A stretch of DNA of 64,000 nucleotides from Rhodocaloribacter litoris. GTDB taxonomy: Bacteria > Bacteroidota > Rhodothermia > Rhodothermales > ISCAR-4553. Positions 21,196 to 52,413 of this stretch are shown here, piece after piece. Where the stretch lies: assembly GCF_011682235.2 (NCBI RefSeq), contig NZ_CP076718.1, positions 996,608 to 1,060,607 of the forward strand. Direction: 5' to 3'. A model generated the notes under the pieces. It did no database searches. It was not told where the DNA came from and saw only the letters and a program-made list of their open reading frames with translations. Position numbers and translations under genes: made by a program. Within the stretch, counting starts at the first letter, position 1, and every line of letters starts with the position of its first letter.

Positions 21196-21203
21196 TATCT
21201 AAT

Positions 21204-30380: not shown

Positions 30381-31293
30381 TCAGAAACGAAGCAGGTCGC
30401 GATCCTCCGGCGCCACGTAACGGTCGAGAAACGGATCGAGCCAGTGGCTCACCAGGTCCCGCAACCGATCGATCTCCGCATGCGACACGAGCGCGTCCGG
30501 AAGGCCGATGCCGGTAATCGCACGCACGAGATGCCCTTTCATGCCGGAACGACCCACCTGAGCCCGCAACCGGGCCGGCCAGCCACGTCGTCGCTGCGTA
30601 TCGCCGGCCCACCACGTCAGGCGGTTGATGCGGCGCATCATCTCGATCTGGAGATCCGGTGGTGAGACGTTCGCCGGCTTGTCCACGAAGTCACGCAACG
30701 GCTCGAAATCGGCCCCGATCACCCCGCAGAAGTCGGCCTCCAGCCCCGGATCCACCTTCACCTTGTCGAACAGCCGCAGGTGCACTCGTTCCGGTCCCAG
30801 TACGGTGGCCCAGCGATCCACCAGCGCCCCATAGTCCAGCCGACCGGCTTGCTCGCTCACAAAGGTCCCGAAGCTCTTCCGGTATGTGCCCATCTTGATA
30901 CGCTGCTTGTAGGAAGAGTGCATGTAGCCCAGCGGATTGCGCACATAGATCAGCACATGGAGATCATGAGGTGCGAGACAGGTCTTCACTTGACCGATAC
31001 GGGCTACATCAAGGCCATCAAAGGCATCCGCCGGACCAGGCTTCCAGTTCGTTTGCAAGCTGGTGCCAGGCTTCGTCTGTTTTTACCCCATGCTTGCCCA
31101 ATAACGACCAGGCGAGTTCGTGATGGCCGGCCGATACAACTCCTTTCCTATCGGGACGTCCGGAACGCGGATAAAGCACGCCCTGCTCAGCCAATAAGAC
31201 CTGGGTCTTCGCCAGAAAAACTTGCAGGGAGGTAGATCCTGTTTTGTGCGTACCGGCATGAACAAAAACTTTCTTCACGACCGGGACAACCAT
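30381..31293 (-). pseudogene. Sulfotransferase gene broken by a frameshift
   Basis: The 5' part, from the ATG at 31293, encodes KVFVHAGTHKTGSTSLQVFL (PAPS loop) and runs to a stop at 31018. The rest of the same enzyme continues in another frame: DAFDGLDVARIGQVK, LHVLIYVRNPLGYMHSSYKQ (second binding site) and a complete C-terminus ending at 30381. Comparison with the intact relative at 35064 shows that several residues, of the VVISCEGF type, are missing at the break near 31030-31050. This suggests a small out-of-frame deletion rather than a single-base error. Together the parts would make about 300 residues. Confidence 0.82.
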
Positions 31294-32210: not shown

Positions 32211-32239
32211 AATGTCCTTTATGGCGGGTTGCTCGATGT

Positions 32240-35894: not shown

Positions 35895-35945
35895 CCCGCT
35901 CAGATCAGGCCTCAGAAGTAATATCCCCTCGAGCTACGGTCAGAT

Positions 35946-37640
35946 TCACTGTAGTCGCTTCAGATACGCCACGAGCGCATCCAGCATAGCCTCGTCCACC
36001 AGAACGGGATCCGGCATGGTAGTACCCGGTGCAAAACCCTGCGGATCGGACAGAAAAGCTTTCAATGCACCTTCATCCCACTTTCCCCTGACGCGACGAA
36101 GTGCATTAGAATAGTTCGAAAACTCGGACCCGGCGATATCCCGGCCCCATACCCCCCAGAGCGACGGAGCACTAGTTCCCCCTGCTGCTCTGCTGAAGCT
36201 ATGACAGGTGGAACAGTAATTTATCACCTCATCCAGCCCCAGTTCTCGCTCCTGTTCGGTAAACTGCAAGGTAACATCTTCGTCCTCCTGGCCAGCAGGC
36301 TTTAACTCAATAAACCTGGCATTATCGGCAAAAAGAAGAATCGCACCATCATCCAGCATCAGCAGGTCACGTATCCGCTCGCCAATACGAATGGGTTCAG
36401 CAAGCACTACGCGTCCCTCCCGGATATGTAGCCTGTACAGGCTCAAACCAGCGAGCGATGACACCAAGAGATCTCCATCCCAGGGATGCGCGGCGTTATC
36501 AACCTGTGTTAGATTAGAAATGCCTATTGAAGGTACCCAGGCATATACGGGCCGCACATATTCATCATGATGTCCCTGCCGCTTATTGTGTGGCCACACA
36601 AACGCGTTTTCCTCGGTTCCATAGGTGACGAGGGGCCATCCGTAATTATTTCCCTCGCGGATCAGATTCAACTCATCTCCTCCCCGAGGACCATGCTCGG
36701 TCTCCCAGAGATTCCCATCTCGATCTAGCAACATACCCTGAGGATTACGCACCCCTTTGGCATAGACGCCGGTCTGTCCTGTCTCAAGGTCGATTCGAAT
36801 CAACTTGCCATAGCTGCTTGTGTCGTCCTGGGCGGCAATCTGTGGATACGATATTCCGTCGAACCGGTGCTCGCCCACCCCAACGATCAGATTCCCCTGT
36901 CGATCCAAGGCCATTCGGCCACCGGTATGATTGGTTATGATCGCTTTGTGTGGTGGATCTCCAAACGGAATGGGCGGATAGCTTTCATAAAGCACTTCCC
37001 ATGCCTCGGCCCCGACACGTTGCCCTTCGAGCAAAGCCTTCAGGTCATTCACCAGCAGGCGAGAAACACGCATCCGCTTACCCTGTGCCTCGTCATCCCA
37101 GTAATGATGAGAAACCACCAACTCCACCCCTCTTTCGGTTTCCCTTGCTACCAGATCCAGCACCCTGAAATACCGATCCGCGTTCCGCCTCGTCCCCTCC
37201 CTTTCTATATGCTCCTGCATATAACCCAGGAAAGAGTTTTTATTCATATCAACATGAATATTTATTTTGATAACAACCCCTCCTGGTTCATAGAAAAAGA
37301 AGGTTCCCTCCCTATCAACACCTAGCACTACATCACCCACCTGTTCCAGAGCCCCGCCGTCGCCCATCAAACCATGTTCTCCCATGATATTATACTTATG
37401 AGCCTCCAGCACCATAAGATTGGTTTCAATCATTGATTTCTCCTGCCCACTGACCGTACCCTCCAATGCGGGCGCTACCACCTTCTTCACACCCGATGCT
37501 GAAGACCAGACATTTTTCAAGCTATCGTAGGGAAATATCTTAAATCTTCCAACAAGAATGCCATACGAAAAGCTGATCACAAGAGTACTCACAAAAAACA
37601 AAACCAACAGATACTTGCTTTTCAGAAAACCGAGTTTCAT
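35946..37640 (-). CDS. Membrane-anchored PQQ-type sugar dehydrogenase with C-terminal cytochrome c
   Basis: The ATG at 37640, preceded by GGAG, gives 564 residues. A single transmembrane helix (about 7-27) is followed by a roughly 430-residue six-bladed propeller of the glucose/sorbosone dehydrogenase type, with TNHTGGRMALDRQGNLIVGV, GVRNPQGMLLDRDGNLWETE, HGPRGGDELNLI and NNYGWPLVTYG. The C-terminal 90 residues are a monohaem cytochrome c: CSTCH at 476-480 and a likely distal methionine at 542 (TTMPDP). It would face the periplasm and oxidise a sugar, passing electrons to its own haem. Its place among polymer genes is unusual. Composition is AT-richer than its neighbours, suggesting transfer. 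Confidence 0.85.
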   Translation of the reverse strand: MKLGFLKSKYLLVLFFVSTLVISFSYGILVGRFKIFPYDSLKNVWSSASGVKKVVAPALEGTVSGQEKSMIETNLMVLEAHKYNIMGEHGLMGDGGALEQVGDVVLGVDREGTFFFYEPGGVVIKINIHVDMNKNSFLGYMQEHIEREGTRRNADRYFRVLDLVARETERGVELVVSHHYWDDEAQGKRMRVSRLLVNDLKALLEGQRVGAEAWEVLYESYPPIPFGDPPHKAIITNHTGGRMALDRQGNLIVGVGEHRFDGISYPQIAAQDDTSSYGKLIRIDLETGQTGVYAKGVRNPQGMLLDRDGNLWETEHGPRGGDELNLIREGNNYGWPLVTYGTEENAFVWPHNKRQGHHDEYVRPVYAWVPSIGISNLTQVDNAAHPWDGDLLVSSLAGLSLYRLHIREGRVVLAEPIRIGERIRDLLMLDDGAILLFADNARFIELKPAGQEDEDVTLQFTEQERELGLDEVINYCSTCHSFSRAAGGTSAPSLWGVWGRDIAGSEFSNYSNALRRVRGKWDEGALKAFLSDPQGFAPGTTMPDPVLVDEAMLDALVAYLKRLQ

Positions 37641-37832
37641 ATCAAGCTCCGGTTTAAGGGTGGTATCAAGCGGGTCATAGCCATTGAAGGCGTCGGTGTG
37701 CAGCGCGATGTAGCCGCACCCTTCACGGGTGCGCCCCATGGCCCACAGGAGAGCCCGGGCCAACGGGACGTGCAACGCGTCCAGATCCGCGGCTACACGT
37801 GGGCCGTTCGCGAAGGGCAACCATGCCCTCAA
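37641..37832 (-). other. Possible gene remnant upstream of the sugar dehydrogenase
   Basis: This GC-rich 64-codon stretch is open and in frame with the dehydrogenase, from a TTG at 37832 that has GGAGGT eight bases upstream. It reads like globular protein (ALLWAMGRTREGCGYIALHT) but ends where the AT-rich dehydrogenase begins. It could be the tail of a lost gene or an N-terminal extension. I do not recognise the family. Confidence 0.3.
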
Positions 37833-37914
37833 TAAAAATGACCTCCGCTATACTATCTTCTCATAGGCGAGGCTTCCGAGAAAAGGTCTTTCTGACGGCT
37901 GTCCGTTGTCACCT

Positions 37915-39045
37915 TCATCCCAGCCCCAGCACCTGCTCCACCTCCTGCCACATGTCCCGCGTCTGCGCCATGAACGCCCCGGCGCGGGCCTGTAGCGTCT
38001 CGACCAGGCCCTCCCGCCCGGGGCCGAGCGTGCGCGTCATGGCAGCGTGGACCTGCTCCGCATCGGTCGGGACGGGCAGCACCAGATCCGGGCAGCCGTA
38101 GTCGGCGAAGAGCATCTCGTACTTGTGGCTCCAGCTCGTAGCGATGGCAGGTACGCCCTGTGTCAGCGCGCTCACCAGCGCGTGGAAGCGCGAAGCCACC
38201 ACCAGCCGGCTCCGGCCCAGTTCGGCCTTGATCCGGACCGGGTCGCGCTCCTCGATCACGGGCAGCGAACGGCCCAGGTGCTGCTGCACGGCCTCCACCA
38301 GCGGGACGTCGTGCGCACCGTGGATCAGCAACACCGGCTCCACCCCGTGCGCCTCCACGGCCCGGACGACCGTCCCGAGCAGCGGCACGTAAGCCTCGGC
38401 CTCTTCCCGGCTCGTGGCCTTTTCGACCATCCGCTGGTTCGGCACGATGCAGGCCCGGTTCAGCGAACCGATCTCCGCCGGCTCCAGCGGCTTGACGAGG
38501 TTGGTAAAGTCGGGCGCCAGGCGCAGGTTCTGCGCATCGGGGACCACCGATCGGGCATGCTCCAGCGAGATCGGATCCCGCGCGTAGACCCGCGTCGCCG
38601 CCCGCAGCACCCGGGCGAAGGCCTCCCGCATGGCCGGCTGCTCGAACGGCCCCAGCGCCTGGGGCAGCAGCACGACCGGCTTGGCCTGCCGCCGCCACCG
38701 CTCCACGTCCTCGGCAAAGCGCACCGTACGCTGGAGCGGGTGCTGATCCCCGAAGGCAAACCCGGAAGCATCCAGGATGGCATCCACCTCCTCCTCGACG
38801 ACGACGCCAAACGACCGGCGAAGCGGGACCGGCAGGAACTGCAGGGCGAGCCAGGCACGCCCTTTACGCAACGGCGGCAGCAGGTAGCGCAGACCGTACT
38901 GCGCCCGCTCCTCGTACGTGCCGAAATCGCCCGGCACCGCCAGCACCACCCCGGGATCCCGGCGATGCAGGTGCTCCTGGATGGCGACCTGCATCAGCTC
39001 GGCTCCCTTGTTCCAGGCATTGGTTCCAACGATGCCGACGGTCAT
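37915..39045 (-). CDS. Polysaccharide pyruvyl transferase family protein
   Basis: This 376-residue protein has VGIVGTNAWNKGAELMQVAI at its start, LDASGFAFGDQ, PVVLLPQALGPFEQPAM, and SRLVVASRFHALVSALTQGV near residue 285, followed by PAIATSWSHKYEML. These are hallmarks of the PS_pyruv_trans family, which transfers pyruvate from PEP to sugars as a ketal, adding negative charge. The ATGA overlap with the nitroreductase-like gene upstream suggests the two proteins work on the same step. The cysteine or histidine residues important in CsaB-like enzymes were not checked individually. Confidence 0.9.
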   Translation of the reverse strand: MTVGIVGTNAWNKGAELMQVAIQEHLHRRDPGVVLAVPGDFGTYEERAQYGLRYLLPPLRKGRAWLALQFLPVPLRRSFGVVVEEEVDAILDASGFAFGDQHPLQRTVRFAEDVERWRRQAKPVVLLPQALGPFEQPAMREAFARVLRAATRVYARDPISLEHARSVVPDAQNLRLAPDFTNLVKPLEPAEIGSLNRACIVPNQRMVEKATSREEAEAYVPLLGTVVRAVEAHGVEPVLLIHGAHDVPLVEAVQQHLGRSLPVIEERDPVRIKAELGRSRLVVASRFHALVSALTQGVPAIATSWSHKYEMLFADYGCPDLVLPVPTDAEQVHAAMTRTLGPGREGLVETLQARAGAFMAQTRDMWQEVEQVLGLG

Positions 39046-40211
39046 TCGAAGTTGTACCGGCAGATCTGCGAATTGGGCTTTTTCTGAGAGTAGGCCACCA
39101 TCCCCTCCGGATCCGGAAAACCCACGGCGATGAACATGATGGGACGCTGATCCGGCGCCAGTTGCAACATCTCCTCCGCCCGCTTTTCATCCTCCTCGAT
39201 ATCCGGCCAGTTGATACAGCATGTTCCGAGCCCCAGCGTCTCACAGGCAAAGACGAAGCTCATGGCTGCCAGAGAAGCATCGATGTAAATCAGGTGCCGA
39301 TCCCGCTCGCCGTAATAATTCCTGAGTTCGCCAACCAGCACAACAATGACCGGGAACTGATGGTAGAACCCGGCGGTGCCCCCGGGCAACGACGCCACCT
39401 TCGGCACGAGGTCCGGATCGTCGAATACCCGGAACTGAAAGGGTTGACGATTACATGCACTGGGAGACAGCTTCGCCACGTCAATGGCCTTCTCGATGAG
39501 TTCCCGCGGAACCGGATCGGGAAGAAACCAGCGGACGGAGCGCCGGCGCCAGGCCAACGCCAGCAGGTCCTCGTACTCGACGGTAGGCGGTACCGAAAGA
39601 TCGCGTTTGTATGGCCTCCAGGGACGATCCTCTTGCGATGGCCGGGAAGGCTGGGGAAGCCGAAAGAAACGCTCCCGCAAACCGTCCAGCCTGGGATGGG
39701 CATCCGTCACGGTGAAGTATTCCCGCAGCACGTCATGCGCCCAGTGCAGCTCCTCCACCGTCAACGGCAGGTGCTCCCCCTGCTTCAACACCGCAGCTTC
39801 GTAAAAAAGAAACGTCTCTTCGATGTAGTCCAGTGCAAAGAGGCGCCGTCGCGGCCGCATGAGCAGGCCCTTCTCCAGCCTGTGTACATTGCGCCGCAAC
39901 AGGCTTGACGTCGCCCCTTCCGCCGTTCGACTGCGCTCCCAGGCCAGCCGTCCCACCAGCACGGCCCGGTGTTCCCGGTCGAAACTGCGGTCAAAGAGGG
40001 CATAATACCAGGAACTGAGACGACCCGACCTTGCGGCAAGACGCATCAGTGCCGGTTCCAGCCGTTGCCAGATTCGCCGCATCCGGCGCCCCACAGCCGC
40101 CCACAACCGATGGGCAAAGGTCCTTGGGGCAGACGAGATCTGCCGTTCCCCCGCGTCCGGGAATGATACGACGCGTGAGGACTCCTTCTGAACAACTTGT
40201 GTGCTTTCCAT
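39042..40211 (-). CDS. Nitroreductase-family flavoprotein with N-terminal extension
   Basis: This protein is about 389 residues from the ATG at 40211; a TTG at 40220 would give a TTGA overlap. Residues 215-389 form a nitroreductase/FMN domain: RRSVRWFLPDPVPRELIEKA, AKLSPSACNRQPFQFRVFDD, and LGLGTCCINWPDIEEDEK. The N-terminal 200 residues (LLRRNVHRLEKGLLM, LREYF) are an extension found in nitroreductases that sit beside pyruvyl transferases in polysaccharide clusters. A redox step linked to the pyruvyl modification is likely, but the substrate is unknown. Confidence 0.85.
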   Translation of the reverse strand: MESTQVVQKESSRVVSFPDAGERQISSAPRTFAHRLWAAVGRRMRRIWQRLEPALMRLAARSGRLSSWYYALFDRSFDREHRAVLVGRLAWERSRTAEGATSSLLRRNVHRLEKGLLMRPRRRLFALDYIEETFLFYEAAVLKQGEHLPLTVEELHWAHDVLREYFTVTDAHPRLDGLRERFFRLPQPSRPSQEDRPWRPYKRDLSVPPTVEYEDLLALAWRRRSVRWFLPDPVPRELIEKAIDVAKLSPSACNRQPFQFRVFDDPDLVPKVASLPGGTAGFYHQFPVIVVLVGELRNYYGERDRHLIYIDASLAAMSFVFACETLGLGTCCINWPDIEEDEKRAEEMLQLAPDQRPIMFIAVGFPDPEGMVAYSQKKPNSQICRYNFE

Positions 40212-40216
40212 GTTGC

Positions 40217-41230
40217 TCAAGTTGTGGATTGATCGCCCGCAAACGTCGGCCAGTATGCCGCCAGGTCAATCTCCAGCAGGTCGGGGAGCCCCGCGTTGCG
40301 CCTTCGCAGGAAGCCCGACAACCATCTACGCGTGGCCGGATCCATGGCAGGAGGACGCCGGGCCGTCATCGGGTTAATCCATCGAAACACTTTTTCCATA
40401 ACCCGATGCGACAACGCGGGCGACTCAGACGCCTGCAACCGGGGAACCTGCATCCGGTAAGAGGATCCGAATTTCCGACGCAGACAATAATTTTCCAGGC
40501 ATTTCAGTCGAGGAAAACGGGGATAACGCCCCGGGTTGGCATGCTGACCCACCTTGATGTCCGCAATGAAAGGCACCCCGATGAATTCGAGAACCTCTCT
40601 CAGAACGGCAAGCTGATTCCTTATAAAATGCTCGAAAATCAAAATCTTGACCTGTTTTCGGGAAAACCGCTCCAGGCAGTACCGAAGGTGTTCCTCGTAA
40701 TAACTTCTCTGCAACAGGTTACCGTGCCCATAACGTATCGAATCCTCGAAGGAAGCAATGGCCCGTCCAGTACGGACCCAGTGCCAGTAATGGGAATACG
40801 TTCGGGCAACCGGGTCTCTGAGAAGTACGATGAGTTTGGCCTCAGATGCATATCTGGCAATACGGTCTATAGCCAGCCTGGAAGACAGATACGTAGCTGA
40901 ATCCTCACCCTTTATCTGATCCGGTTTAGAGAGAGCAAAATGCCTCGCGTACCATGCTGCATAGACATCAAAAAATGATTCAAAATCCTGTTCCACCCAG
41001 CAACCATCCCACTGGGCCTGTGGAAAAGCATCAAGATCATCTATTGCAAAGAAATGCAATTCCCCCCGGGGTATGTAGACGTCCGGATGCTGCTCGAGCA
41101 GATGGTGCAGCGTTGTGGTGCCGCTTTTCATGGCCCCGATGATGAGAAAATCGGGGACGACCGGAAGCGCACGTGAGGCGCTTTCATCCGGCTTTCCCCG
41201 CCACAACGAGGCGGTGGCGTCCATCTTCAT
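40217..41230 (-). CDS. Sulfotransferase (Sulfotransfer_1 type)
   Basis: This 337-residue protein has the canonical PAPS loop FLIIGAMKSGTTTLHHLLEQ near residues 28-47, HFFAIDD, KGEDSATYLSS, and the 3'-phosphate site LIVLLRDPVARTYSHYWHWV near 133-152. This resembles heparan N/O-sulfotransferase relatives. The start overlaps the stop of the IS-interrupted paralogue as ATGA, so the two once formed a translationally coupled pair. It appears intact. Confidence 0.92.
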   Translation of the reverse strand: MKMDATASLWRGKPDESASRALPVVPDFLIIGAMKSGTTTLHHLLEQHPDVYIPRGELHFFAIDDLDAFPQAQWDGCWVEQDFESFFDVYAAWYARHFALSKPDQIKGEDSATYLSSRLAIDRIARYASEAKLIVLLRDPVARTYSHYWHWVRTGRAIASFEDSIRYGHGNLLQRSYYEEHLRYCLERFSRKQVKILIFEHFIRNQLAVLREVLEFIGVPFIADIKVGQHANPGRYPRFPRLKCLENYCLRRKFGSSYRMQVPRLQASESPALSHRVMEKVFRWINPMTARRPPAMDPATRRWLSGFLRRRNAGLPDLLEIDLAAYWPTFAGDQSTT

Positions 41231-41897
41231 CCGTCCCAGTCAAAATGCTTTCCGATCAACCTGAAGAGCGCTTCATTGGGCTCGCGAAAGCGCTCATACA
41301 GCATCTCATGTTCCCTGGTACGTTTTCGCTCGTAATTGCCCCGATTTCGAACACGGACGTCGGCAATGGGGCGAGGTTCGAGATCCAGAAACCGAGACAC
41401 TTCATCCACGACCTGTTGCGGATTCGAGAGCATTACTTCACTCTGCACAACGTATACCTGTCCTCGATCGAACAGTTCGAAATACCGCTCTAACTGCCTG
41501 GCATAAAGACCACGTGCCACATAGGAATAAGCATAGAATGCATGACTATGATATTCAGGATCTTCCAGCATTCGTTCCTCTTCCCCGGCCGTGCGTTCGG
41601 CCTCTTCCGCCAGGGCTTCGGCAAACGAAAGTTCTTCGAATCCTTTTCGCTTCGTATGTTGATAGTGTGAGTAGGCACGATCTACAGGATTACGAAGCAC
41701 CGCAATAAGTTTTACATCCGGCAGGTTCTCATGAATCCGCTTTGCAACGACTGGATGGAACAAATACGAAGGACTCGCCTCCCCCGTCACACGGGACCCA
41801 TGCACATACTTCAGAGGAAAGAAGGTTCGATACCAGAGTAGCCCTTTCTTGTAATGCCGGTCGAAGAAATGCACCTCTTTCCGCAAAGCCGGTAAGA

Positions 41898-41908: not shown

Positions 41909-41986
41909 GCAGTAACATGGTCCGCAACAATTGTGGTTGCTTCAAGTTATTAGTAGCTCGTCTCCGCTCCGCTTGCTCCAGTGCTC

Positions 41987-42340
41987 ATGAAAGCCCTCTC
42001 CCCTGATCTCAGAGAACGTATCGTGAAGGCCTACCTCAACGGGGAAGGCTCACAAAAACACATCGCCCAGCGCTTTTCCGTCTCTCAACGCACCGTCAGA
42101 CGTCTGGTCAAACTCTACCGAAGCACCGGTTCGCTCTTACCCCGTACGCGCTTCAATGGCCGTAGCCCCATCCTCGGCCCACAAGACCGACAATGGCTGC
42201 TGCAACTGTTCAAGGAAAACCCGGATCTGACGCAGGAGCAACTGGCCCATCGCCTCACCGAAGCCGGACGTCCGGTCAGCCAACAGACCGTCAGCCGGGC
42301 CCTTAAGCGCCTGGGGATCACACGAAAAAAAAGACCTTGA
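41987..42340 (+). CDS. IS630 transposase, first frame (DNA-binding part)
   Basis: This 117-residue frame from the ATG at 41987 has a helix-turn-helix region (GSQKHIAQRFSVSQRTVRRL) and a second Leu-rich HTH (TQEQLAHRLTEAGRPVSQQT), typical of the paired N-terminal domains of IS630 transposases. It ends just after a run of eight A (42325-42332). A -1 slip there would continue into the catalytic frame, giving a fusion of about 320 residues. Confidence 0.9.
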   Translation: MKALSPDLRERIVKAYLNGEGSQKHIAQRFSVSQRTVRRLVKLYRSTGSLLPRTRFNGRSPILGPQDRQWLLQLFKENPDLTQEQLAHRLTEAGRPVSQQTVSRALKRLGITRKKRP

Positions 42341-42939
42341 GACCTTCCCAACAAGATCGTCCAGCGGTTCAAGCCGAGCGCATGGCTTTCAGGCAGCGTC
42401 TGTCCGAGATCGCCCCTGAGCGGATCAAGGTGGTCGATGAGAGCCGGGTGGAGGTGGGCATGCGGCTCCCCTACGGCTACAGTGTTCGCGGTGCGCGCTG
42501 CCATGAGCGCGCGCCGCTGCGCAGTCCGATTCGGCGTAGCTTGATCGGCTGGATGGGATTCGATGGGTCGGGGGTCGTGGCCACGCACGCAGGCACGGTG
42601 CGTGGGTGGACCTTTCGCGGGTTTGTGCGCCGGCACCTGGTCCCGTATCTGAGGCAGGGAGACGTCGTCATCTGGGACAATGCCACGATTCATGGTGTCG
42701 AGGGGATCAAGGACCTGATCGAGGCGGCCGGGGCGGAGGTATTGCCGCTGCCGCGTTATAGTCCGGATCTGAGCCCGATCGAGTTGGCCTGGAACAAAAT
42801 CAAGCATGTGGTCAAACGCGCGCGTGCAGAGACGGCGCAGGCGTTGGAGGCGTCCGTGGAGCAGGGGGTGGCCGCGGTTAGGCCCTCCGATGCCGTGGGG
42901 TGGTTCAAACACTGTGGTTATTTGGGTCAAAGTCCCTGA
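42337..42939 (+). CDS. IS630 transposase, second frame (DDE catalytic part)
   Basis: This is the RNase-H-like domain with the DDE triad: IKVVDESRVEVGM (first D), VIWDNATIHGVEGI (second D), and YSPDLSPIELAWNKIK (E). It has no convincing start of its own, so it is probably translated by -1 frameshifting at the A8 run as a fusion with the first frame. The stop abuts the right terminal repeat. All catalytic residues are present, so the element may still be mobile. Confidence 0.9.
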   Translation: MRPSQQDRPAVQAERMAFRQRLSEIAPERIKVVDESRVEVGMRLPYGYSVRGARCHERAPLRSPIRRSLIGWMGFDGSGVVATHAGTVRGWTFRGFVRRHLVPYLRQGDVVIWDNATIHGVEGIKDLIEAAGAEVLPLPRYSPDLSPIELAWNKIKHVVKRARAETAQALEASVEQGVAAVRPSDAVGWFKHCGYLGQSP

Positions 42940-43153: not shown

Positions 43154-45307
43154 TCAACGCACGAGCACGACGGGTACCGTGCGAAGGAACTGCTCGCCCC
43201 GGACACGGACAAAATACATCCCGGCCGGAAGATTTTCTGCTTCAATCACTATATCGTGTTCCGTGTTCGGCTCGACGGTGCGCTCGAGGATCGTGCGGAC
43301 GTGGCGTCCTGTAGCGTCGTAGAGCATCACCTGTACGCCCTGCGGGCGTGCCACGGCCAGGCGCAGGGTTGCCCGCCCCTGAAAGGGATTCGGGAACGGC
43401 GGTTCCAACTCCAGGCTGCCGGTCACGGCATGGGCCAGCGTTACCTCGGGCGAATAGGCGAACGATCCGTCGAAGTCGACCTGCCTGAGGCGGAACGTGT
43501 AGGTACCCGGCGGCAGGTCGGACAGGCGCAGTTCGTAGGTCTGGGGCTCCGAGGTCGTGCCCTGCCCGTCCACGAAGCGGACCGTCCGGAACGCCGTGTC
43601 CCCGGTCGAACGCTGCTGTACCTCGAAGCCGGCGTTGTCGGTCTCCGAAGCCGTGGCCCAGGCCAGCAGCACGTCCCGGCCGTCCGAGACGGCTTCGAAG
43701 CGGGTCAGCTCGACGGGAAGCTGGCTGCAGTCCGACGCACGTGAAGCCTTGGAGGAAGACGTGCCCCCGCCGAAGGTTCCGACTGCAACCGCCCAGTCCG
43801 AAACGTAGGGCAGCTCCCACACGTTGAGGCCGGCGGTCGCCTCACATCCATCCACCTCCACATAGGGGGCCTTCGTGTCGACAAAGACCACGTCGAGTTG
43901 CCCCAGCACCCCGGTCAGATCGCCCTGTATCTGATCGGTTTCCTCCTTATAAAACACAAAGGACGCCCGGGCCGGGTCGCCCAGACAATAGCCGTCCGAC
44001 AGTTCGCTGCAGGGCTCCATGTCGTTGAGGAAACGGTTTTCCCAGAAAACAAAGTGCGTCTTAAACCAGTGAGGGTTAGAATAAGGATCTCGCTTATAAC
44101 TACCGTCCCATCCCCATATGGCACTGACGCCCCCGGCCATGACCAAGGTCCACAACTGCCGGCGCTGGCTTTCTTCGTCCATGCGGGATGCATACCATCG
44201 TTCATCAAAAGAATGAGGAACGGTTGGGTCAGATTCAATAACCGCTACTGTTGCATTGTAATCGACGCCATTGAACCAATTACCCCGCGAGTACCAATCG
44301 GCACCAGGCCAAAACGTGTAATTTATATTTTCTCCCTGGTCACGAGCTCCGAGGGGGTGCTGCCAACCCATATGCTCACGCAGATAAGTCCCCCAGCCAT
44401 TCAACTCGGTAACATCCGCAAACTCATGCAAGTCATACCCATAACCCATGATCCAGCCTGGTAACGGCCCCAATCGGGCGGCAATGTAACGCAAGAGCCG
44501 CTGCTCGCCTATCGTTGAGGCTCCAGCTTCCCCGAAACCAGCTTCAACACATTGAGACCGCTTGCAATCGCCATTGTACCAGATATGAACGACCCCGCCC
44601 CGGGCATAAACCTTGGTTATGATTTCCTCCAACACACGGAAAGAATCCATATCGGGGTCGTTGTTTGTAAAATCTGCTCCGGTAGCATTGATATCCACCC
44701 AGTAGCCAGCCATGAACACGAAAACACCATTAAAGCCCTCCGAAGTCATCCATTGATCCAGGTATCCATCAATCTCTGCCGACGACCAGTTGAAACTGTT
44801 CTTTTTTTCAAAACCCATACGAAACTGTGGAACGAAGGCCTCGATCTCCCCGTCGTTCCCCTTCTGCCGCGCCCACTTCGTATGCGTGGCCGACTCGTAC
44901 TCCGTCACGAACCCGTACGCCTCCGTATCCGGGTTCGGATTGATCGTCACCGTGCCCGAAAGCCCGTCCAGCTCCGCATCCGCACTCGCACTCTCGAACG
45001 TCCACGTGCCGACCTCCGTCCCCGTGAAACGCCACTTCCACGTGTCGCCCCCGTCGTAGAACATCTCCGTCGTGTGCGTGGCCCCGCTGGCGCTGTGCGT
45101 GAAGGTGACCGTGGCGACCAGGTCGAACGGGTTGCCGCTGTAGCTCGGGTTCTCCACCTCCCACTCCAGGTACGGCGCCCACAGCGTGCCCGTACGGTCG
45201 AGGGAGTTTGTGTTCGTTTGTTGTACCCGGGTTTCACCGGCAGCACCCGGAAGGATCATATGGGCCAGAATGAAGAGGAAGAGAAAGATCCGAATCCTGT
45301 CGTGCAT
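43154..45307 (-). CDS. Secreted DUF5060 glycoside-hydrolase-like protein with T9SS sorting tail
   Basis: This 717-residue protein has a signal peptide (hydrophobic 6-20, cleavage near GAAGE). Residues 35-130 are the DUF5060 beta-sandwich (LWAPYLEWEVENPSYSGNPF). Residues 165-490 form a TIM-barrel-like domain (GVFVFMAGYWVDIN, GGVVHIWYNGD, GWIMGYGYDLHEF, MAGGVSAIWGWDG), as in DUF4038/apiosidase-like hydrolases. From about residue 535 comes the T9SS tail (LPVELTRFEAVSDGRD, FRLRQVDFDGSFAYS, PPFPNPFQG). It is probably a surface or released enzyme acting on a plant-like or self-made glycan; the substrate is unknown. Its DUF5060 coding DNA is almost identical to that of the neighbour at 45464. Confidence 0.86.
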   Translation of the reverse strand: MHDRIRIFLFLFILAHMILPGAAGETRVQQTNTNSLDRTGTLWAPYLEWEVENPSYSGNPFDLVATVTFTHSASGATHTTEMFYDGGDTWKWRFTGTEVGTWTFESASADAELDGLSGTVTINPNPDTEAYGFVTEYESATHTKWARQKGNDGEIEAFVPQFRMGFEKKNSFNWSSAEIDGYLDQWMTSEGFNGVFVFMAGYWVDINATGADFTNNDPDMDSFRVLEEIITKVYARGGVVHIWYNGDCKRSQCVEAGFGEAGASTIGEQRLLRYIAARLGPLPGWIMGYGYDLHEFADVTELNGWGTYLREHMGWQHPLGARDQGENINYTFWPGADWYSRGNWFNGVDYNATVAVIESDPTVPHSFDERWYASRMDEESQRRQLWTLVMAGGVSAIWGWDGSYKRDPYSNPHWFKTHFVFWENRFLNDMEPCSELSDGYCLGDPARASFVFYKEETDQIQGDLTGVLGQLDVVFVDTKAPYVEVDGCEATAGLNVWELPYVSDWAVAVGTFGGGTSSSKASRASDCSQLPVELTRFEAVSDGRDVLLAWATASETDNAGFEVQQRSTGDTAFRTVRFVDGQGTTSEPQTYELRLSDLPPGTYTFRLRQVDFDGSFAYSPEVTLAHAVTGSLELEPPFPNPFQGRATLRLAVARPQGVQVMLYDATGRHVRTILERTVEPNTEHDIVIEAENLPAGMYFVRVRGEQFLRTVPVVLVR
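44823..45201 (-). repeat. 379-base tract nearly identical to 46623-47001
   Basis: By direct comparison the two tracts, exactly 1,800 bases apart, differ at three positions. Each encodes the DUF5060 domain. Flanking sequence is not alignable at DNA level. Confidence 0.93.
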
Positions 45308-45463
45308 GTGGCTGGTCGTAGCTTACAGGTGGTGGGAAGGAAGGATACCGGCAAGACAAGCGAGCGGTCGATTATCTTCAATTTTTCCACGTCATTCCAC
45401 GTAGAAGTATCCTTCTTTTGCTACGATATCGTCACGGGCGCCGCGGGGATAAGCGGCGACGTG

Positions 45464-47122
45464 TCATTTCCCCATGAAGCGCTCACAGAGCGGGTCATCC
45501 TGCCCGGAATGCTCCAGTGCCACGGCCCAGTCGGAAACGTGGGGAAAGGAAACCCCGGCCACACGCCCCGTCACCATCCTGCAAAATCCCTGTTCTTCAT
45601 AAGGTTGCCGCGTATCGACGTATACCACCCGAAAGGCGGTGGTGTCCGGCATGGCATGGAGACCTAGAACCACCTCTCCTGCCTCTTCTACATAGACCAC
45701 GTACATGCCTTCTCTGGGATCTCCCAGACAATACTCAGCGAGTTCGGGACAGGGCTCCATATCCGGCAGGAAACGCTCTTTCCAGAACGTCGCATACGTC
45801 CTGATCCAGTCCGGACGTGGATACGGGCGCGAGCCGGTACGACGCCCGAAGAGACGACGCACCCGGTACCAGAGGCCCTGGTCCGGGATACCGGCCAGGT
45901 TGCCCCAGATGTTGGCGACCCCGCCGGCCAGGGTGGAATGCCAGAGGCCGCGCCGTGTATCCTCCATCGAATAATCCTTCTCGCGGAAAGGTGCCCCGTC
46001 GCGTATGCGAAAGCGATCCTCTGAGAAGGCCGGCTTATCGGGGCGTGCCCGGATCGTCTCCAGATAAAGCGGATAATCCGGCCGGTGCTGTTCGTAGGAG
46101 GCATAGTCGAGCTTTTCGCTCAGCTGGGTGAGCCTGTTCTTGTGCGACCTTGCCCCCAGCAGGTGCGGCCATCCGAAATGGGCATGGAGGTAGTCGTGCC
46201 AGGCATCTAGGGTCGCGCCGTCGACCCACTCCCAGAGATCGAAGCCATAGCCCATGGTCCACCCGGGCAGCGGCCCCAGCCGCGCCGCAATGTAGCGCTG
46301 CAGGCGACGGTCCGCCTGGCCGTTGAGGCCCCAGCGTGCCGGCGTCTGGGTTCGGGATTCATCGCCCCACATCCAGAGATGCACGACCCCGCCGGCCGCG
46401 TGGGTCTTCGTGATCAGCAACTCCAGCGCCTCGAACGTGCGCGGGTCCGGATCCGGGTCTTCTGCATCAATCGAACGGCAGCGCTCGGTCCCCAGCTCAA
46501 ACCAGTGACATAAGACGGGAACGTGAAAGCCCGTGAACCCGTGCTCCTGAAGAAATACGCGGATGTCTTCGTCGATGGCCTCCCGATGCCGGTAGATATA
46601 ATCCGGCGCCTCGTACATGACGAACTGTGGAACGAAGGTCTCGATCTCCCCGTCGTTCCCCTTCTGCCGCGCCCACTTCGTATGCGTGGCCGACTCGTAC
46701 TCCGTCACGAACCCGTACGCCTCCGTATCCGGGTTCGGATTGATCGTCACCGTGCCCGAAAGCCCGTCCAGCTCCGCATCCGCACTCGCACTCTCGAACG
46801 TCCACGTGCCGATCTCCGTCCCCGTGAAACGCCACTTCCACGTGTCGCCCCCGTCGTAGAACATCTCCGTCGTGTGCGTGGCCCCGCTGGCGCTGTGCGT
46901 GAAGGTGACCGTGGCGACCAGGTCGAACGGGTTGCCGCTGTAGCTCGGGTTCTCCACCTCCCACTCCAGGTACGGCGCCCACAGTGTGCCCGTACGGTCG
47001 AAGCCGGATACGACACCAGACCCCGGATTCGGCGTACCACAACCCCACACCATGCACAAGGGTATTCCAACAAACATAAAGCATATATAATTCATTTTAT
47101 TTAAACTGTTATTTAAAACCAT
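45464..47122 (-). CDS. DUF5060 glycoside-hydrolase-like lipoprotein
   Basis: This is about 552 residues from the ATG at 47122. The N-terminus has a lipoprotein-like signal ending in VWGC, so it is probably lipid-anchored rather than T9SS-exported. The DUF5060 domain follows and is nearly identical to the neighbour's. The TIM-barrel-like part (GFHVPVLCHWFELG, GGVVHLWMWGDES, GWTMGYGFDLWEWVD, LAGGVANIWGNLAG) is homologous to the paralogue but clearly diverged, and there is no sorting tail. Co-localisation suggests that both act on related glycans from different cellular positions. The substrate is unknown. Confidence 0.85.
   Translation of the reverse strand: MVLNNSLNKMNYICFMFVGIPLCMVWGCGTPNPGSGVVSGFDRTGTLWAPYLEWEVENPSYSGNPFDLVATVTFTHSASGATHTTEMFYDGGDTWKWRFTGTEIGTWTFESASADAELDGLSGTVTINPNPDTEAYGFVTEYESATHTKWARQKGNDGEIETFVPQFVMYEAPDYIYRHREAIDEDIRVFLQEHGFTGFHVPVLCHWFELGTERCRSIDAEDPDPDPRTFEALELLITKTHAAGGVVHLWMWGDESRTQTPARWGLNGQADRRLQRYIAARLGPLPGWTMGYGFDLWEWVDGATLDAWHDYLHAHFGWPHLLGARSHKNRLTQLSEKLDYASYEQHRPDYPLYLETIRARPDKPAFSEDRFRIRDGAPFREKDYSMEDTRRGLWHSTLAGGVANIWGNLAGIPDQGLWYRVRRLFGRRTGSRPYPRPDWIRTYATFWKERFLPDMEPCPELAEYCLGDPREGMYVVYVEEAGEVVLGLHAMPDTTAFRVVYVDTRQPYEEQGFCRMVTGRVAGVSFPHVSDWAVALEHSGQDDPLCERFMGK
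46623..47001 (-). repeat. 379-base tract nearly identical to 44823-45201
   Basis: This is the second copy of the DUF5060-coding tract. Identity starts and stops abruptly at the domain edges. Confidence 0.93.
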
Positions 47123-47200
47123 ATCAATCAATCACATCCAAATCCAAAGTCCATTTCCCGCCAAGCATAAACAACACATTACTCATTAAAATACAATGAT

Positions 47201-48274
47201 TCACAATATCCTACAGAGCAAACGATATTTAAGTTTACGCAATCTATACTGAAGATCCCAAGCAATCACATATGGGTGAAACAGCTTGCGTACGCGGCGA
47301 ACGGTTCTGTCCAAAATCCATGCCACACACCGTTCAACAAAAGAGGGGCTTTTAGGATTTATATACTCACGTACATAGCCAAAATTTTCCAACGCATTTC
47401 CTGCCTCATACTCAATGAGCTCAATTTCTCTAGGTGTAAATCGCTTCTTGTATATCTGTATCTTATCTGCTCGAATTCCGGTAGTGAGCGACGAATGCCA
47501 GGGTTGTTTCGTGTATGTCTGGCTAAGTGCAGAAGCCTGATAACGATTTGTGGTATCAATGTATGATTCGCCAAGAAAATCAAAAATACACTCCAAAACA
47601 TTCTGTGTATCTACAACAAGATCTTCGTAACGAATTTGCAAGATTCTACTTGAATCAATACAATCTTTTGCCGTCTTCCATGCCAGCACTTCATCCCGCC
47701 ACATTCTACCTAGACCAATAGCGGAAACCGGCCCATAGACCATACGCCTCATTGCTTCTGCAACATCACGTCCGTCGCGCACGAGATGAATAAATAGAGC
47801 ATTAGGAAAATCAGTATTTATAAGAGATAGATAGCGAACATGTTCAGGGGTTTTATCACCCCATCGTGACGCCCCTCTACTTCGCGCATAATATTGAAAC
47901 AGAACCGAAACTATTTCTGCACGAGAATAGACCTTCAACTCAGATTCCACCTGATCTACGGTCAGAGACAATCCCCACATTCGAATCTGTGCATCTGCAA
48001 GCAGATCCCGTATAAAGCGACGCCTTTTCGCAGGTATGCGTAAATCCCCGTAACAATGAAAAATATCAGCAAATCTAAGATATAACTGACTTTCCGGAGG
48101 AATAGTAATGCGCGGATGCGCATCAATCAGTGCCTGCAGCAAAGTTGATCCAGATCGGCTACAGCCAACGATAAAAAACGGCGCCTCTGAAACATCGCCT
48201 GACACAGCGCGAGAAGATGTATGTAAATGCGGCTGATTCATATATACATCAAGCGGAAACAGACTGTGAATCAT
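47201..48274 (-). CDS. Sulfotransferase (Sulfotransfer_3 type)
   Basis: This 357-residue protein starts at the ATG at 48274 with AGGTGGAGG directly upstream, which overlaps the previous gene by 26 bases; an ATG at 48241 is an alternative. It has PFFIVGCSRSGSTLLQALID near residues 32-51, SRWGDKTPEHVRYL, and FIHLVRDGRDVAEAMRRMV near 160-178. These match the Sulfotransfer_3 family, close to tyrosyl/glycan sulfotransferases. It is AT-richer than the genes to its right. Confidence 0.9.
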   Translation of the reverse strand: MIHSLFPLDVYMNQPHLHTSSRAVSGDVSEAPFFIVGCSRSGSTLLQALIDAHPRITIPPESQLYLRFADIFHCYGDLRIPAKRRRFIRDLLADAQIRMWGLSLTVDQVESELKVYSRAEIVSVLFQYYARSRGASRWGDKTPEHVRYLSLINTDFPNALFIHLVRDGRDVAEAMRRMVYGPVSAIGLGRMWRDEVLAWKTAKDCIDSSRILQIRYEDLVVDTQNVLECIFDFLGESYIDTTNRYQASALSQTYTKQPWHSSLTTGIRADKIQIYKKRFTPREIELIEYEAGNALENFGYVREYINPKSPSFVERCVAWILDRTVRRVRKLFHPYVIAWDLQYRLRKLKYRLLCRIL

Positions 48275-49253
48275 CCTCCACCTGCGCGGGTGTTGCTTTT
48301 ACACTCCAAACAACTCCTGGCAAAAGAGAAAACAGGAAAAAAACAAACATCATCGTGCTGACGACCAGGACATCCGCATAGGATATTCCGAGCAAACCAA
48401 ACAAAAATACCAGTGCCCCCTCTCGAATACCGATGCCGGCATAGCCAATGGGAAGCCGCTGCAGCAACATACCAAGAGGAAGTACCGCCAAGCACATTAT
48501 GAAGGGAACAGGCACATGAAACATTCGAAAGCCCAGATAGAACGACAGTACGGGAAAAAGTTGTTCTGCAGCTGACAGGCCATAGTTGATCAAAATAATG
48601 CGCTGCTGAACCTGGTACTGCTTCAATGTATCGATGAAGCTTTGGAACCGGCTGAATTGTCTGAACGGACGACCATGTTTCAGGCAACCGTATAACCACC
48701 GCTGCAAGGGTTTACAGAATAACAGGGCTCCCAGTACAAAGGCAAATAATGTCCCTCCCCATACGATTCCGCTCTCCACTGGAACGAGAGAAACGTCAAG
48801 TTGCAACAGAAGTAGCCCTATGGAAACCGCTGTGACGGTCAGGGTAGCCAGTAGTCCGACCAGACGTTCCAGAACAATAGAAGCCGCTACGGCCTGTGGT
48901 GAAGCTCCCGAGAAACGCAGGTGGACATATCGGACCAGATCGGGGCCAAGACCACCCAAAGGCAGCAACAACCCTTGAAAACTACTCATGTAATAGACCC
49001 TTACCGCATCGTACAACCCCGGTGCCGGAGCAATGGCTCGTAGCAGCATCCGCCACTTCCACGCCATCCAGACTCGACTGGCCATCATGATCAGGATCAG
49101 AACAGGCAAGTAGACGAGTTCGGCTCGCCCAAGCATGTCCCAGACCTGCGCCCAGTCGAGTCGACTGTACAGAAATACCAGCAACCCGAGGCTGACCGCG
49201 AAACGAACCAGCAGTTTAGCAGCCGGCCTCACAGCAACTCTGCATGATGGCAC
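48249..49253 (-). CDS. YbhN/UPF0104-type membrane protein (LPG synthase TM region family)
   Basis: This 334-residue protein begins at a GTG and has about eight hydrophobic segments. GLLLPLGGLGPDLVRYVHLR and the late RLPIGYAGIGIREGALVFLF fit the LPG_synthase_TM/UPF0104 family (PF03706). Members are often found in polysaccharide and lipid-glycan loci and are proposed to move lipid-linked substrates across membranes. No standard Wzx flippase is present in the window, so this could have such a role, but that is inference. Confidence 0.82.
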   Translation of the reverse strand: MPSCRVAVRPAAKLLVRFAVSLGLLVFLYSRLDWAQVWDMLGRAELVYLPVLILIMMASRVWMAWKWRMLLRAIAPAPGLYDAVRVYYMSSFQGLLLPLGGLGPDLVRYVHLRFSGASPQAVAASIVLERLVGLLATLTVTAVSIGLLLLQLDVSLVPVESGIVWGGTLFAFVLGALLFCKPLQRWLYGCLKHGRPFRQFSRFQSFIDTLKQYQVQQRIILINYGLSAAEQLFPVLSFYLGFRMFHVPVPFIMCLAVLPLGMLLQRLPIGYAGIGIREGALVFLFGLLGISYADVLVVSTMMFVFFLFSLLPGVVWSVKATPAQVEDDSQSVSA

Positions 49254-49278
49254 AAGAAAAGCACCCGCATTGCCCCTG

Positions 49279-50409
49279 TCAATAGACCCGTCCCCCCTCC
49301 AATCGTCGCCTGAGCTTTCCTCGATAAACCTGTGTCAAGGACCGACGTCCTACTCCGGGAAGACGCCAGATAAAGTCCGCCTTGAGGCGGCATATCCGCA
49401 GCGGATCTATGCCGGGTGCATTATAGACCTGTCCGGGGATGATCCCCCACACACAACTGGGAACTTCCAGACGACGCAGCACCCGCGTGCTGAGGGCACT
49501 GCCCAGCGTATAAGGCAAACAAAAATGACGACCGGCACGCTGATCCACCCGACTCTGAAGCAGTTCGCGTGCTCTGATGACATCTCGTTCGATACAACGC
49601 TCCGTCGCGGTCAGGTCCTGGTAGCGCATAATGGCACGCAGATCATCACCCGGATGAACCGGGGACCGCGCTGCCAGACGTTCAATGTCCAGCTTCCAGA
49701 ATGAGGTTCCGCGAAACAGGGACGTCGTCCGGAAAAGTGGCAACCCGTAGTAACGGGACGGTTGAATACCCCGCCCGACATCGTCCAACCCGAGATAGGC
49801 CGTCACCGAGGTTTGATAAGGCACGTAACTGCTTTCCGGTCCCAGAATCCCCATGACGCGGGTATCACAAAACACTTCCCGATGAAACAGCGAATGCGAT
49901 TCGATCTCCACCCATCCGGAGCGGTACATTTCCCGGAGTTCGGGCCAGGTACACAGGGTCGTGTCCTCCGCATCCAGGCGTTCGATATCCGACAGGGTGG
50001 CGCGCCCTTCCCACACGTCCCGCAAATTACTTCGAACATCCGGTGCATCCAGCGTCAGACCCGCAATCACGAACAGCACGCCCTTCATCTGATAACGCTG
50101 CAGTAACGGGAAGCCGTAACGCCAAAAACTGGACCGCGCGTCATCGAACGTCAGCACGACATGCTTGTCCGGCAGTACCTGCCGCCCCTCCAGAAAAGCA
50201 ACCAGCTCCTCCATTCCCACCGTACTGTAACCATTCTCGCCGAGAAACTGCAGATCGGCTTCGAAGGCATGGGGATCCACCGTGTGATAGACAAACACCG
50301 GGACGTATCCCCGCAGAGGCTCCGGTTTTCGCGCGTATACGAAATCAGGATACCCGCGTAACAGGGAATCCAGTTCATGCCGAAACTGATCAACGAACGT
50401 GAAATCCAT
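49279..50409 (-). CDS. Polysaccharide deacetylase family protein
   Basis: This 376-residue protein has the NodB-domain start VPVFVYHTVDP (36-46), the metal/catalytic motif LTFDDARSSFW (86-96), and a second motif VEIESHSLFHRE near 168 with His residues for metal binding. No signal peptide or transmembrane segment is visible, so a cytoplasmic or membrane-associated role is likely. It could remove N- or O-acetyl groups from a precursor or lipid-linked sugar. Free amino groups made this way could be sites for N-sulfation or N-formylation by neighbours. Confidence 0.85.
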   Translation of the reverse strand: MDFTFVDQFRHELDSLLRGYPDFVYARKPEPLRGYVPVFVYHTVDPHAFEADLQFLGENGYSTVGMEELVAFLEGRQVLPDKHVVLTFDDARSSFWRYGFPLLQRYQMKGVLFVIAGLTLDAPDVRSNLRDVWEGRATLSDIERLDAEDTTLCTWPELREMYRSGWVEIESHSLFHREVFCDTRVMGILGPESSYVPYQTSVTAYLGLDDVGRGIQPSRYYGLPLFRTTSLFRGTSFWKLDIERLAARSPVHPGDDLRAIMRYQDLTATERCIERDVIRARELLQSRVDQRAGRHFCLPYTLGSALSTRVLRRLEVPSCVWGIIPGQVYNAPGIDPLRICRLKADFIWRLPGVGRRSLTQVYRGKLRRRLEGGRVY

Positions 50410-50432
50410 ACTGAATGACTATGCCGCTCACC

Positions 50433-51506
50433 CTAGGTGGGTACATGGATCTTCACCGTCCTTTTCGCCAGCAGAGGACGCACCAGACGCCAGTAATACG
50501 ATAAAAGCCGGCTTACTATGCGGACACCGAAAGCAACCAGCCGTCCTAAGCCCCCCCCGGCCGGCCGCACATACAGAGGCCCCCCACTCAGTACGTCTCG
50601 ATCGGCCACTTCCCGTAGGGCCTGGATCTCCCGGCGTCGCCGTACAAACTGCGGGAGGTGCCGGAGAGCCTTCCAGGTACCCTTGAGATACAGATGCGGT
50701 ATGCCACGCATCAAGAAAAAGCCACATTGCACTACCTCGAACAACACAAGGGCCGGGGCGATCACCAGCAGGGTACGCACGGCGTAGTGCGTGGTGATGA
50801 ACCGCCACCGATTGTAGACCTGCCCGCTGGCCCGATAATGACGTGCCCGGCCGAAGGGCTTGTACTCATGATAACCCACCGCCGCAGGCACCACCATACT
50901 CAGATAACCTGCGAGTAAAAAGCGCTGGTGCAATTCACCGTCATCCCCCCAGGCCAGTTCATAACCCTCATCGAACCCCCCGACTTCCCACAGCTTCTTC
51001 CTGTCTATCAGTGCAATTCCCCCCCCGATGGCTACCCTCGGTCTGTTCTCGAGTTGCCCGGCGATCCGGTCGCGTCCCATGGCTTCCGTAGCGCCACAAT
51101 AATGGACCCGCGTGCCGGCCTGATATACACGGGCTGGCTCCTCAAGATACATCAGACGGGGAATGCATATCGCCACACGGTCGTCAACTTCCATCACCTC
51201 CAGCAGACGCAGCAAGGCATCCGGCTCGAACACAACGTCATTGTCCGTCAAGAAAACACGGTCGGTATGAGCCAGGTTGAGCCCCAGGTTACGCAGCCGG
51301 TTCACCTGACGGGTGTTCCTTGGCTCCCGGTGGATCCGAACCTCGGGAAATGCCGCCCGCACCATCTCCACACTTCCGTCGGAAGACCCATCATCCACCA
51401 CCACGATGTGCGGCCGGACTCCCTCTTGCCCCTGAAGTGAACGAATCGTCTCCAGCAGGGTCGACCGGCCATTGTAGTTGACGATGACAACGGACAGCTC
51501 CCGCAT
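50433..51506 (-). CDS. Family 2 glycosyltransferase
   Basis: This 357-residue protein has LSVVIVNYNGRSTLLETIRS at its start, IVVVDDGSSDGSVEMV, VFLTDNDVVFEPDALLRLLE as the DxD-type site, and GGFDEGYELAWGDDGELHQR as the catalytic acidic segment. A hydrophobic C-terminal stretch (VLFEVVQCGFFLMRGI) suggests membrane association. It is a typical polysaccharide GT2; the sugar is unknown. Confidence 0.9.
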   Translation of the reverse strand: MRELSVVIVNYNGRSTLLETIRSLQGQEGVRPHIVVVDDGSSDGSVEMVRAAFPEVRIHREPRNTRQVNRLRNLGLNLAHTDRVFLTDNDVVFEPDALLRLLEVMEVDDRVAICIPRLMYLEEPARVYQAGTRVHYCGATEAMGRDRIAGQLENRPRVAIGGGIALIDRKKLWEVGGFDEGYELAWGDDGELHQRFLLAGYLSMVVPAAVGYHEYKPFGRARHYRASGQVYNRWRFITTHYAVRTLLVIAPALVLFEVVQCGFFLMRGIPHLYLKGTWKALRHLPQFVRRRREIQALREVADRDVLSGGPLYVRPAGGGLGRLVAFGVRIVSRLLSYYWRLVRPLLAKRTVKIHVPT

Positions 51507-51558
51507 TGCCTCCCTAAGCTTTCGAATCTTCCCGGTCAGCGATGCTTCGTTGACGGCA

Positions 51559-52413
51559 TCATTCCGTCTTTTCCACTCCGCCTGCTTTCCTCGACCGAAT
51601 GACGCGGCACGGTACCCCTGCGGCCAGGCTGCGGGGTGGAATGGCCGAGCGAACCACAGCCCCGGCCCCGATCACCGCACCCTCCCCGATGGTAACCCCG
51701 TCCATCACCTTCACGCCGGCCCCCAGCCAGCAATGCGCCCCGATGTCAATACCGCGGCTCTCCAGTCCTTCCTGATCGGCAAACGCCGGAGCACCTGCAG
51801 CGATATCGTAGTTTCCTCCGCCGACCAGGTAACAGTAGGCCGCCAGCAGGGTCCCCTCCCCGACCGTCACACGGCTGGAGGAAAAAATCTCACAGTTGAA
51901 CCCGATGTTGACGCGATCTTCCAGACGGATGTCGCCATCCTTGCAACTGAGGATGGTGTTGCGCCCCACGAACACACCGTTTCCGATGGAAATGCCCTGG
52001 TTGGTGGCGCCTTTGGCATCCAGCAGACAGTTATCGTCGATGACCACGTTATCCCCGATCACGATTTTATGCGGGTGACGCAGCACCACCCCGGTGCCAA
52101 ACACCACCCCCTTCCCCACATGGCCCAGTACCAGCGGGTAGAGCCTGCTTCGCAGGAAGAGCCCCAGCACGCCGGGCACCCAGCTACTGAGGAGCATGAC
52201 GAGTTCATACTTGATCAGCGCTCCCCAGCCGGGTTGACCCACGACCAGCATCCTGTACCGGTCCGCACGGGAACGCCCGGTCTCGTCCAGCAGCTTGCGA
52301 ACCTTGGTGTCGCGCCGAACGATTCCCCTTTTGCGAACCGGCCGTCCTTCCCCGTTCCGAAGGCCCCTGTTAGACCGGCGCTTACGGAAAGGAAGCAACT
52401 TCAGCATGGCCAT
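51559..52413 (-). CDS. Hexapeptide-repeat acyltransferase
   Basis: This 284-residue protein has, after a positively charged N-terminal 100 residues, a left-handed beta-helix made of hexapeptide repeats (VVFGTGVVLRHPHKIVIGDN, GISIGNGVFVGRNTIL, IDIGAHCWLGAGVKVMDGV). It resembles O-acetyltransferases of capsule clusters that use acetyl-CoA. It would add a second acetylation route besides the MBOAT-SGNH protein. Confidence 0.88.
   Translation of the reverse strand: MAMLKLLPFRKRRSNRGLRNGEGRPVRKRGIVRRDTKVRKLLDETGRSRADRYRMLVVGQPGWGALIKYELVMLLSSWVPGVLGLFLRSRLYPLVLGHVGKGVVFGTGVVLRHPHKIVIGDNVVIDDNCLLDAKGATNQGISIGNGVFVGRNTILSCKDGDIRLEDRVNIGFNCEIFSSSRVTVGEGTLLAAYCYLVGGGNYDIAAGAPAFADQEGLESRGIDIGAHCWLGAGVKVMDGVTIGEGAVIGAGAVVRSAIPPRSLAAGVPCRVIRSRKAGGVEKTE

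Follow-up and report, generated by a model that had tools for sequence, protein, structure and literature searches.

Near-identical DUF5060 tract inside two diverged tandem paralogues of a Rhodocaloribacter litoris exopolysaccharide cluster suggests recent copying of a single module

The 64,000-nucleotide stretch of Rhodocaloribacter litoris DNA analysed here (hereafter the window) carries two genes, g1 and g2, arranged head to tail (Table 1). Since their neighbours comprise three sulfotransferases, a deacetylase, a glycosyltransferase, an acetyltransferase and an LPG_synthase_TM protein, the region is assigned to an exopolysaccharide (slime or capsule) biosynthesis cluster. The C-terminal sorting domain of g1 passes the curated cut-offs of both TIGR04183 (38.5 vs 23 bits) and PF18962 (38.2 vs 27 bits). 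The structure model of g2 (pLDDT 75, pTM 0.80) shows a (beta/alpha)8 barrel fold, and its best solved matches are 4n0r, the mannanase ManDH5 (GH5) and GH140 enzymes; the barrel stands between an N-terminal and a C-terminal sandwich. The whole-chain architecture of g2 resembles that of PDB 4n0r (BVU_0362) and ManDH5 (PDB 9gpa), with VIA Z of 28.3 and 27.1, although the identity to g2 is only 15–17%. In an HMM alignment, a Tyr-Gly of the g1/g2 family (MGYGFD) stands opposite the Asn-Glu of the NEWD motif of 4n0r; in clan GH-A, an Asn-Glu motif behind strand 4 carries the catalytic acid/base Glu. A literature search on ManDH5 and BVU_0362 found nothing, and one on DUF5060 found nearly nothing. 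Judging from the cluster context and the predicted fold, g1 and g2 are likely surface- or envelope-located putative glycosidases that act on the polysaccharide of their own cluster, and DUF5060 is likely a putative structural or docking module that tolerates exchange.

Table 1 Features of the g1/g2 locus and its surroundings (window positions)
Feature	Position	Strand	Remarks
Gene g1, 717 aa	43154..45307	-	signal sequence, DUF5060 tract, diverged barrel, T9SS type A sorting tail
C-terminal tail of g1	43154..43783	-	includes Por_Secre_tail sorting domain; shares about 49% identity with the tail of the Roseithermus gene
Catalytic part of g1	43784..44822	-	GC3 about 0.59 vs 0.91 in the tract; longest branch of the catalytic tree
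Tract copy in g1 (379 bp)	44823..45201	-	residues ~37-161; mismatches at 44839, 45013, 45185
Gene g2, 555 aa	45464..47131	-	probable lipoprotein-type signal (MVWGC, by eye), DUF5060 tract, GH-A-like barrel, C-terminal beta-sandwich; without T9SS tail
Catalytic part of g2	45464..46622	-	GC3 about 0.73; closest relatives Woeseiaceae and Nitrospirota MAGs, 50-52% protein identity
Tract copy in g2 (379 bp)	46623..47001	-	residues ~45-169; DUF5060 beta-sandwich and connection to barrel
IS630-type transposase (two ORFs)	41981..42939	+	adjoins the 3' end of g1; context only
Nitroreductase-family protein and two sulfotransferases	39042..41886	-	cluster context
Sulfotransferase, LPG_synthase_TM protein, polysaccharide deacetylase, glycosyltransferase, hexapeptide acetyltransferase	47201..52413	-	cluster context

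When the window is set against a copy of itself shifted by 1,800 bases, 376 of the 379 bases match between the tract copies of g1 and g2, and BLASTN aligns the two copies without gaps at 99.2% over 379 bp. This direct comparison confirms the claim of the first-pass annotation that the two genes share 379 bases with three differences, exactly 1,800 bases apart. All three mismatches are C/T on the plus strand; one leaves the protein unchanged, and the other two are amino-acid substitutions (A/T and V/I). The tract is in frame within both genes. Identity per full 30-bp bin is 96.7–100% within the tract and about 10–40% directly outside it, so that similarity between g1 and g2 drops abruptly to chance level at both ends. 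The 5' edge lies in the linker behind the signal sequence, and the 3' edge coincides with the FVPQ motif (residues 169–172), adjoining the first strand of the predicted barrel. In the g2 model, the tract likewise comprises the first sandwich together with the connection to the barrel, and reaches as far as the first barrel strand. Since one edge falls in a linker and the other at the first barrel strand, the borders fit a structural domain junction, and it is in this sense that the edges of identity coincide with domain edges as first described; the Pfam DUF5060 match itself is shorter than the tract (residues 55–116 of the 555-aa protein). The two DUF5060 (PF16586) matches pass the curated cut-off (49.5 and 48.5 bits vs 27.2).

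The genome is a single contig of 4,502,320 bp, in which the tract and Pfam DUF5060 are each present exactly twice; no third tract or donor copy was found anywhere in it. That the identity arose as an assembly or collapsed-repeat artefact is hardly credible, given one 4.5-Mb contig and two in-frame copies that lie in distinct full-length genes, have different flanks and carry three differences. Moreover, an independently sequenced genome, described below, carries the same module with the same borders.

Silent sites separate the tract sharply from the remainder of the two genes. The dS between the tract copies is 0.024, whereas the catalytic parts share only 39–40% protein and 47% DNA identity and are saturated at synonymous sites; the catalytic domains and tails are thus distant, as had been noted, and their synonymous divergence is not equally low. 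Residues shared by g1 and g2 are encoded by identical codons at 115 of 117 positions in the tract vs 39 of 117 in the catalytic part (Fisher p 2e-29). Upstream of the tract, the signal sequences show 11% protein identity. Since these are unrelated, the tract is an island, and it is the tract itself that would have moved. GC3 is 0.90–0.91 in the tract and lower in both adjoining catalytic parts (Table 1), which may give only a hint of the copying direction. The outgroup, with a third residue in the codons of two of the three mismatch sites, gives no direction of copying.

A search of 114 genomes of the order revealed one further gene of this kind, g3, in Roseithermus sacchariphilus MEBiC09517 (G008), also located in an exopolysaccharide cluster with sulfotransferases. 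Only one of the 114 genomes has two copies, and the Roseithermus copy is single. The other relatives belong to Woeseiaceae, Nitrospirota, Planctomycetota, Bacteroidota and others, and all of them have a DUF5060 domain at this place; no relatives were found on viral contigs. We compared tree distances of the tract and the catalytic part in a set of eleven relatives, mostly from other phyla. The tract/catalytic ratio has a median of 0.53 and a minimum of 0.19 in the 88 other pairs, vs 0.006 for g1–g2, 0.039 for g1–g3 and 0.064 for g2–g3. Ratios so far below those of the other pairs indicate that the three Rhodothermales genes are mosaics, whose two borders coincide in each of the three comparisons. 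The second genus thus shows the same mosaic, and the distant relatives lack such conservation of the tract. A same-genome pair on one Nitrospirae MAG contig (L022/L028) is not homogenised, its tracts being about 0.61 and its barrels about 0.40 apart in branch lengths. Intrinsic conservation of DUF5060 was rejected as an explanation, since tract and barrel diverge at similar rates in relatives from other phyla.

Trees of the two parts of the protein also differ. The tract tree unites g1, g2 and g3 (98/97), and almost no distance separates g1 from g2. The catalytic tree places g1 beside g3 at moderate support (80/94), weakly rejects g1+g2 as a pair (AU p 0.039) and gives only weak support to a group of all three Rhodothermales genes (77/92). 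Forcing the tract of g2 beside the catalytic neighbours of g2 is rejected (AU p 0.006).

The same mosaic would also result if the 5' module or the whole gene had been duplicated recently and a foreign catalytic domain had then replaced the resident one, so that the barrel would be the new part. The atypical GC3 of the g1 barrel (0.59 vs 0.91 in the tract) and the closeness of the g2 barrel to Woeseiaceae and Nitrospirota proteins are in line with this, and partial 5' duplications are tolerated in the cluster, as the fragment at 20021–20368, 95% identical to 16313–16660, illustrates. However, low GC3 is common across the cluster. Replacement of the barrel would also require that both flanks were replaced, since the signal-sequence ends differ too, and because DUF5060 already occupies this place in all relatives, simply replacing the module would take fewer steps. 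We therefore regard barrel replacement as unlikely.

The tract of g3 is 89% identical to the window copies in DNA and 90–91% in protein, with a dS of 0.52, whereas its catalytic part shares just 41–46% protein identity with those of g1 and g2. For a background, we took 185 equally long windows from orthologues of both genomes, in which the median dS is 0.72 and the lowest 5% reach 0.45 or less. The tract value lies at the low end of ordinary orthologue values, and 26 of the 185 windows are as low. Since 0.52 is within the orthologue range, it is by itself compatible with both descent and transfer, and an older exchange could have occurred near the species split rather than later. A recent cross-lineage patch in the middle of the tract, where differences are few, was also considered and is unconvincing (silent changes, p 0.55 and 0.09; changes of any kind, p 0.14 and 0.03).

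Without recombination, very strong purifying selection on DUF5060, combined with codon bias that keeps silent sites alike, would have to account for the tract. The protein identity to the Roseithermus tract, which exceeds that of all 185 background windows, and the strongly biased GC3 (0.79–0.91) are what such selection would leave. Nevertheless, even at the 95th percentile of the orthologue windows (0.73), the probability of identical codons at 115 of 117 positions is about 1e-13, and silent changes do accumulate relative to Roseithermus (28 of 125 codons). In other family members, DUF5060 is not so much more conserved than the barrel. Selection is thus a very improbable cause, already refuted for g1 and g2 by the silent sites. 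Constraint at the DNA level by an RNA or regulatory element was likewise rejected, since a search of the tract against Rfam gave no match and silent changes relative to Roseithermus occur.

The surroundings of g1 and g2 are more telling than the tract dS about the link to Roseithermus. The window from 20.3 to 40.2 kb corresponds to a Roseithermus block at about 2,018–2,038 kb. Several genes in this block are 85–95% identical with dS of 0.08–0.36 (vs the median of 0.72), and other cluster genes are 58–65% identical with dS of at least 1.0. At the end of the Roseithermus block lies a truncated dehydrogenase fragment that is 92% identical to the full-length gene of the window genome and 77% to that of its own genome. 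The low-dS genes and this fragment together indicate that pieces of the cluster were exchanged between both lineages. An exchange of the DUF5060 module with Roseithermus is consistent with such traffic.

We consider that the DUF5060 module was recently copied between old tandem paralogues by homologous recombination and that an earlier exchange involved Roseithermus, and we assign this reading a probability of roughly 0.8. Both genes would belong to one rare family, composed of a DUF5060 sandwich and a GH-A-type barrel, in the sulfotransferase-rich cluster. One gene would recently have received its 5' module from the other, or from a third native source, recombination being confined to the sole stretch with enough identity. 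The copied stretch would end where homology ends, on one side at the unrelated linker of the signal sequence and on the other at the barrel, which has diverged strongly. The 89%-identical copy in Roseithermus may stem from an earlier exchange in which this module moved with the same borders, most likely when pieces of the cluster passed between the lineages. Because the flanks have diverged, any later recombination would have to stop at the same borders, and such a self-reinforcing island of homology may explain how borders are shared without any special signal. We infer RecA-type recombination or gene conversion as the mechanism, and likewise the order of events and the function.

The proposal of the first-pass annotation, a recent conversion or swap of the module, is thus strongly supported by a tract dS of 0.024 beside saturated catalytic parts, by the same mosaic in a second genus and by relatives in which the domain is less conserved. 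The annotation had also suggested conversion that keeps a binding domain homogenised while the catalytic domains diversify. Recombination stands as part of that proposal, whereas continuing homogenisation and a binding role of the domain reach further than the data do; a single event is sufficient for the identity of g1 and g2. As for diversification, the catalytic domains are already old and diverged, and that they are diversifying goes beyond this observation.

Domain-limited gene conversion between diverged bacterial paralogues is already known from domain 3 of RF1 and RF2, where it was found with phylogenetic and sliding-window methods, with one case in Bacteroidia (PMC4530459). As in g1 and g2, the paralogues are diverged and conversion is confined to nearly one whole domain, whose function RF1 and RF2 share. 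Those events are ancient, concern housekeeping genes and were recovered from phylogenies, whereas the present one is recent, retains 99% DNA identity and lies in tandem accessory genes of a polysaccharide cluster. Copying between duplicate genes of one chromosome is also seen for tuf in Salmonella, but the tuf copies are near-identical throughout (PMC5485169), while in g1 and g2 an island alone is homogenised inside paralogues of 40% identity. In long-lasting concerted evolution in prokaryotes (PMC6053082), same-genome paralogues are more alike than to orthologues elsewhere, as in the g1/g2 tract, but whole genes are affected over very long times, in contrast to a single domain known from one genome. 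The g1/g2 pair is a new and unusually clean case of a known process. In it, recombination uncouples the history of one domain from that of the remaining protein, and a second genome as well as the unhomogenised relatives serve as controls. In a fast-exchanging polysaccharide cluster, the line between conserved and variable can thus cut through the middle of a gene, which bears on how accessory glycosidases acquire catalytic domains and why whole-gene enzyme trees mislead.

Polymorphic Rhs/CDI-type proteins are modular, with a constant N-terminus and a variable C-terminus. The g1/g2 pair resembles them in its near-constant N-terminal module on variable C-terminal catalytic domains and in its tandem arrangement. 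Unlike these proteins, g1, g2 and g3 have no toxin or immunity features, and their C-terminal parts, all barrels, are homologous and belong to one glycosidase-like family. Arrays of spare C-terminal cassettes were not found for g1 and g2. A bolder idea, possible but doubtful in our judgement, is that DUF5060 serves as an exchangeable constant cassette that has been recombined repeatedly onto different polysaccharide-active barrels within and between Rhodothermales lineages, reusing the self-reinforcing borders. Enzymes of variable specificity would then keep a common docking or secretion-compatible front end.

The fragment at 20021–20368, a solitary 5' piece of the dehydrogenase gene, was evaluated as a second case of concerted evolution and rejected, since the corresponding Roseithermus fragment resembles the full gene of the window genome and not its own. 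It is a duplicated fragment that travelled with the transferred block.

When the 555-aa DUF5060 protein g2 and its relatives (L021-L030 and L073) are aligned by hidden Markov model with the solved structure of BVU_0362 (PDB 4n0r), the canonical Asn-Glu that follows strand 4 faces Tyr-Gly: the g2 family carries MGYGFD where PDB 4n0r carries MANEWD. This replacement suggests that the g2 family may have unusual catalytic residues. In the Nitrospirae MAG bearing the L022/L028 gene pair, a stop and a frame change break the second DUF5060 gene (contig JAQBUF010000060.1); since coverage is low (0.66), the break is likely a sequencing error.

Many genes of the exopolysaccharide-cluster block are 85-95% identical to those of Roseithermus sacchariphilus, well over the genomic background, with dS of 0.08-0.36 for several of them, and genes at 58-68% are interspersed among them. 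This mixture indicates a patchwork of horizontal exchange. A solitary dehydrogenase fragment (~120 codons) matches the full gene at 95% identity. This fragment is also present in Roseithermus, at the corresponding end of the block, where it is closer to the full gene of the window genome (92%) than to the full gene of Roseithermus itself (77%).

The dispersed repeat (~170 bp) has 57 matches genome-wide and one strong match in Roseithermus; an Rfam search with it returned no match. One gene is duplicated in tandem in Roseithermus (L104, G008:C1:2031975-2034329; 1,165 bp at 96% identity), and its counterpart in the window is one copy.

Features in the window
Positions	Strand	Feature
14468-16828		dehydrogenase/oxidoreductase fusion gene, full
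16313-16660		full-gene stretch matched by fragment
20021-20368		5' fragment of fusion gene
20300-40200		exopolysaccharide-cluster block
23781-25025		counterpart of L104
37684-37853		dispersed repeat, one copy
45464-47131	-	g2
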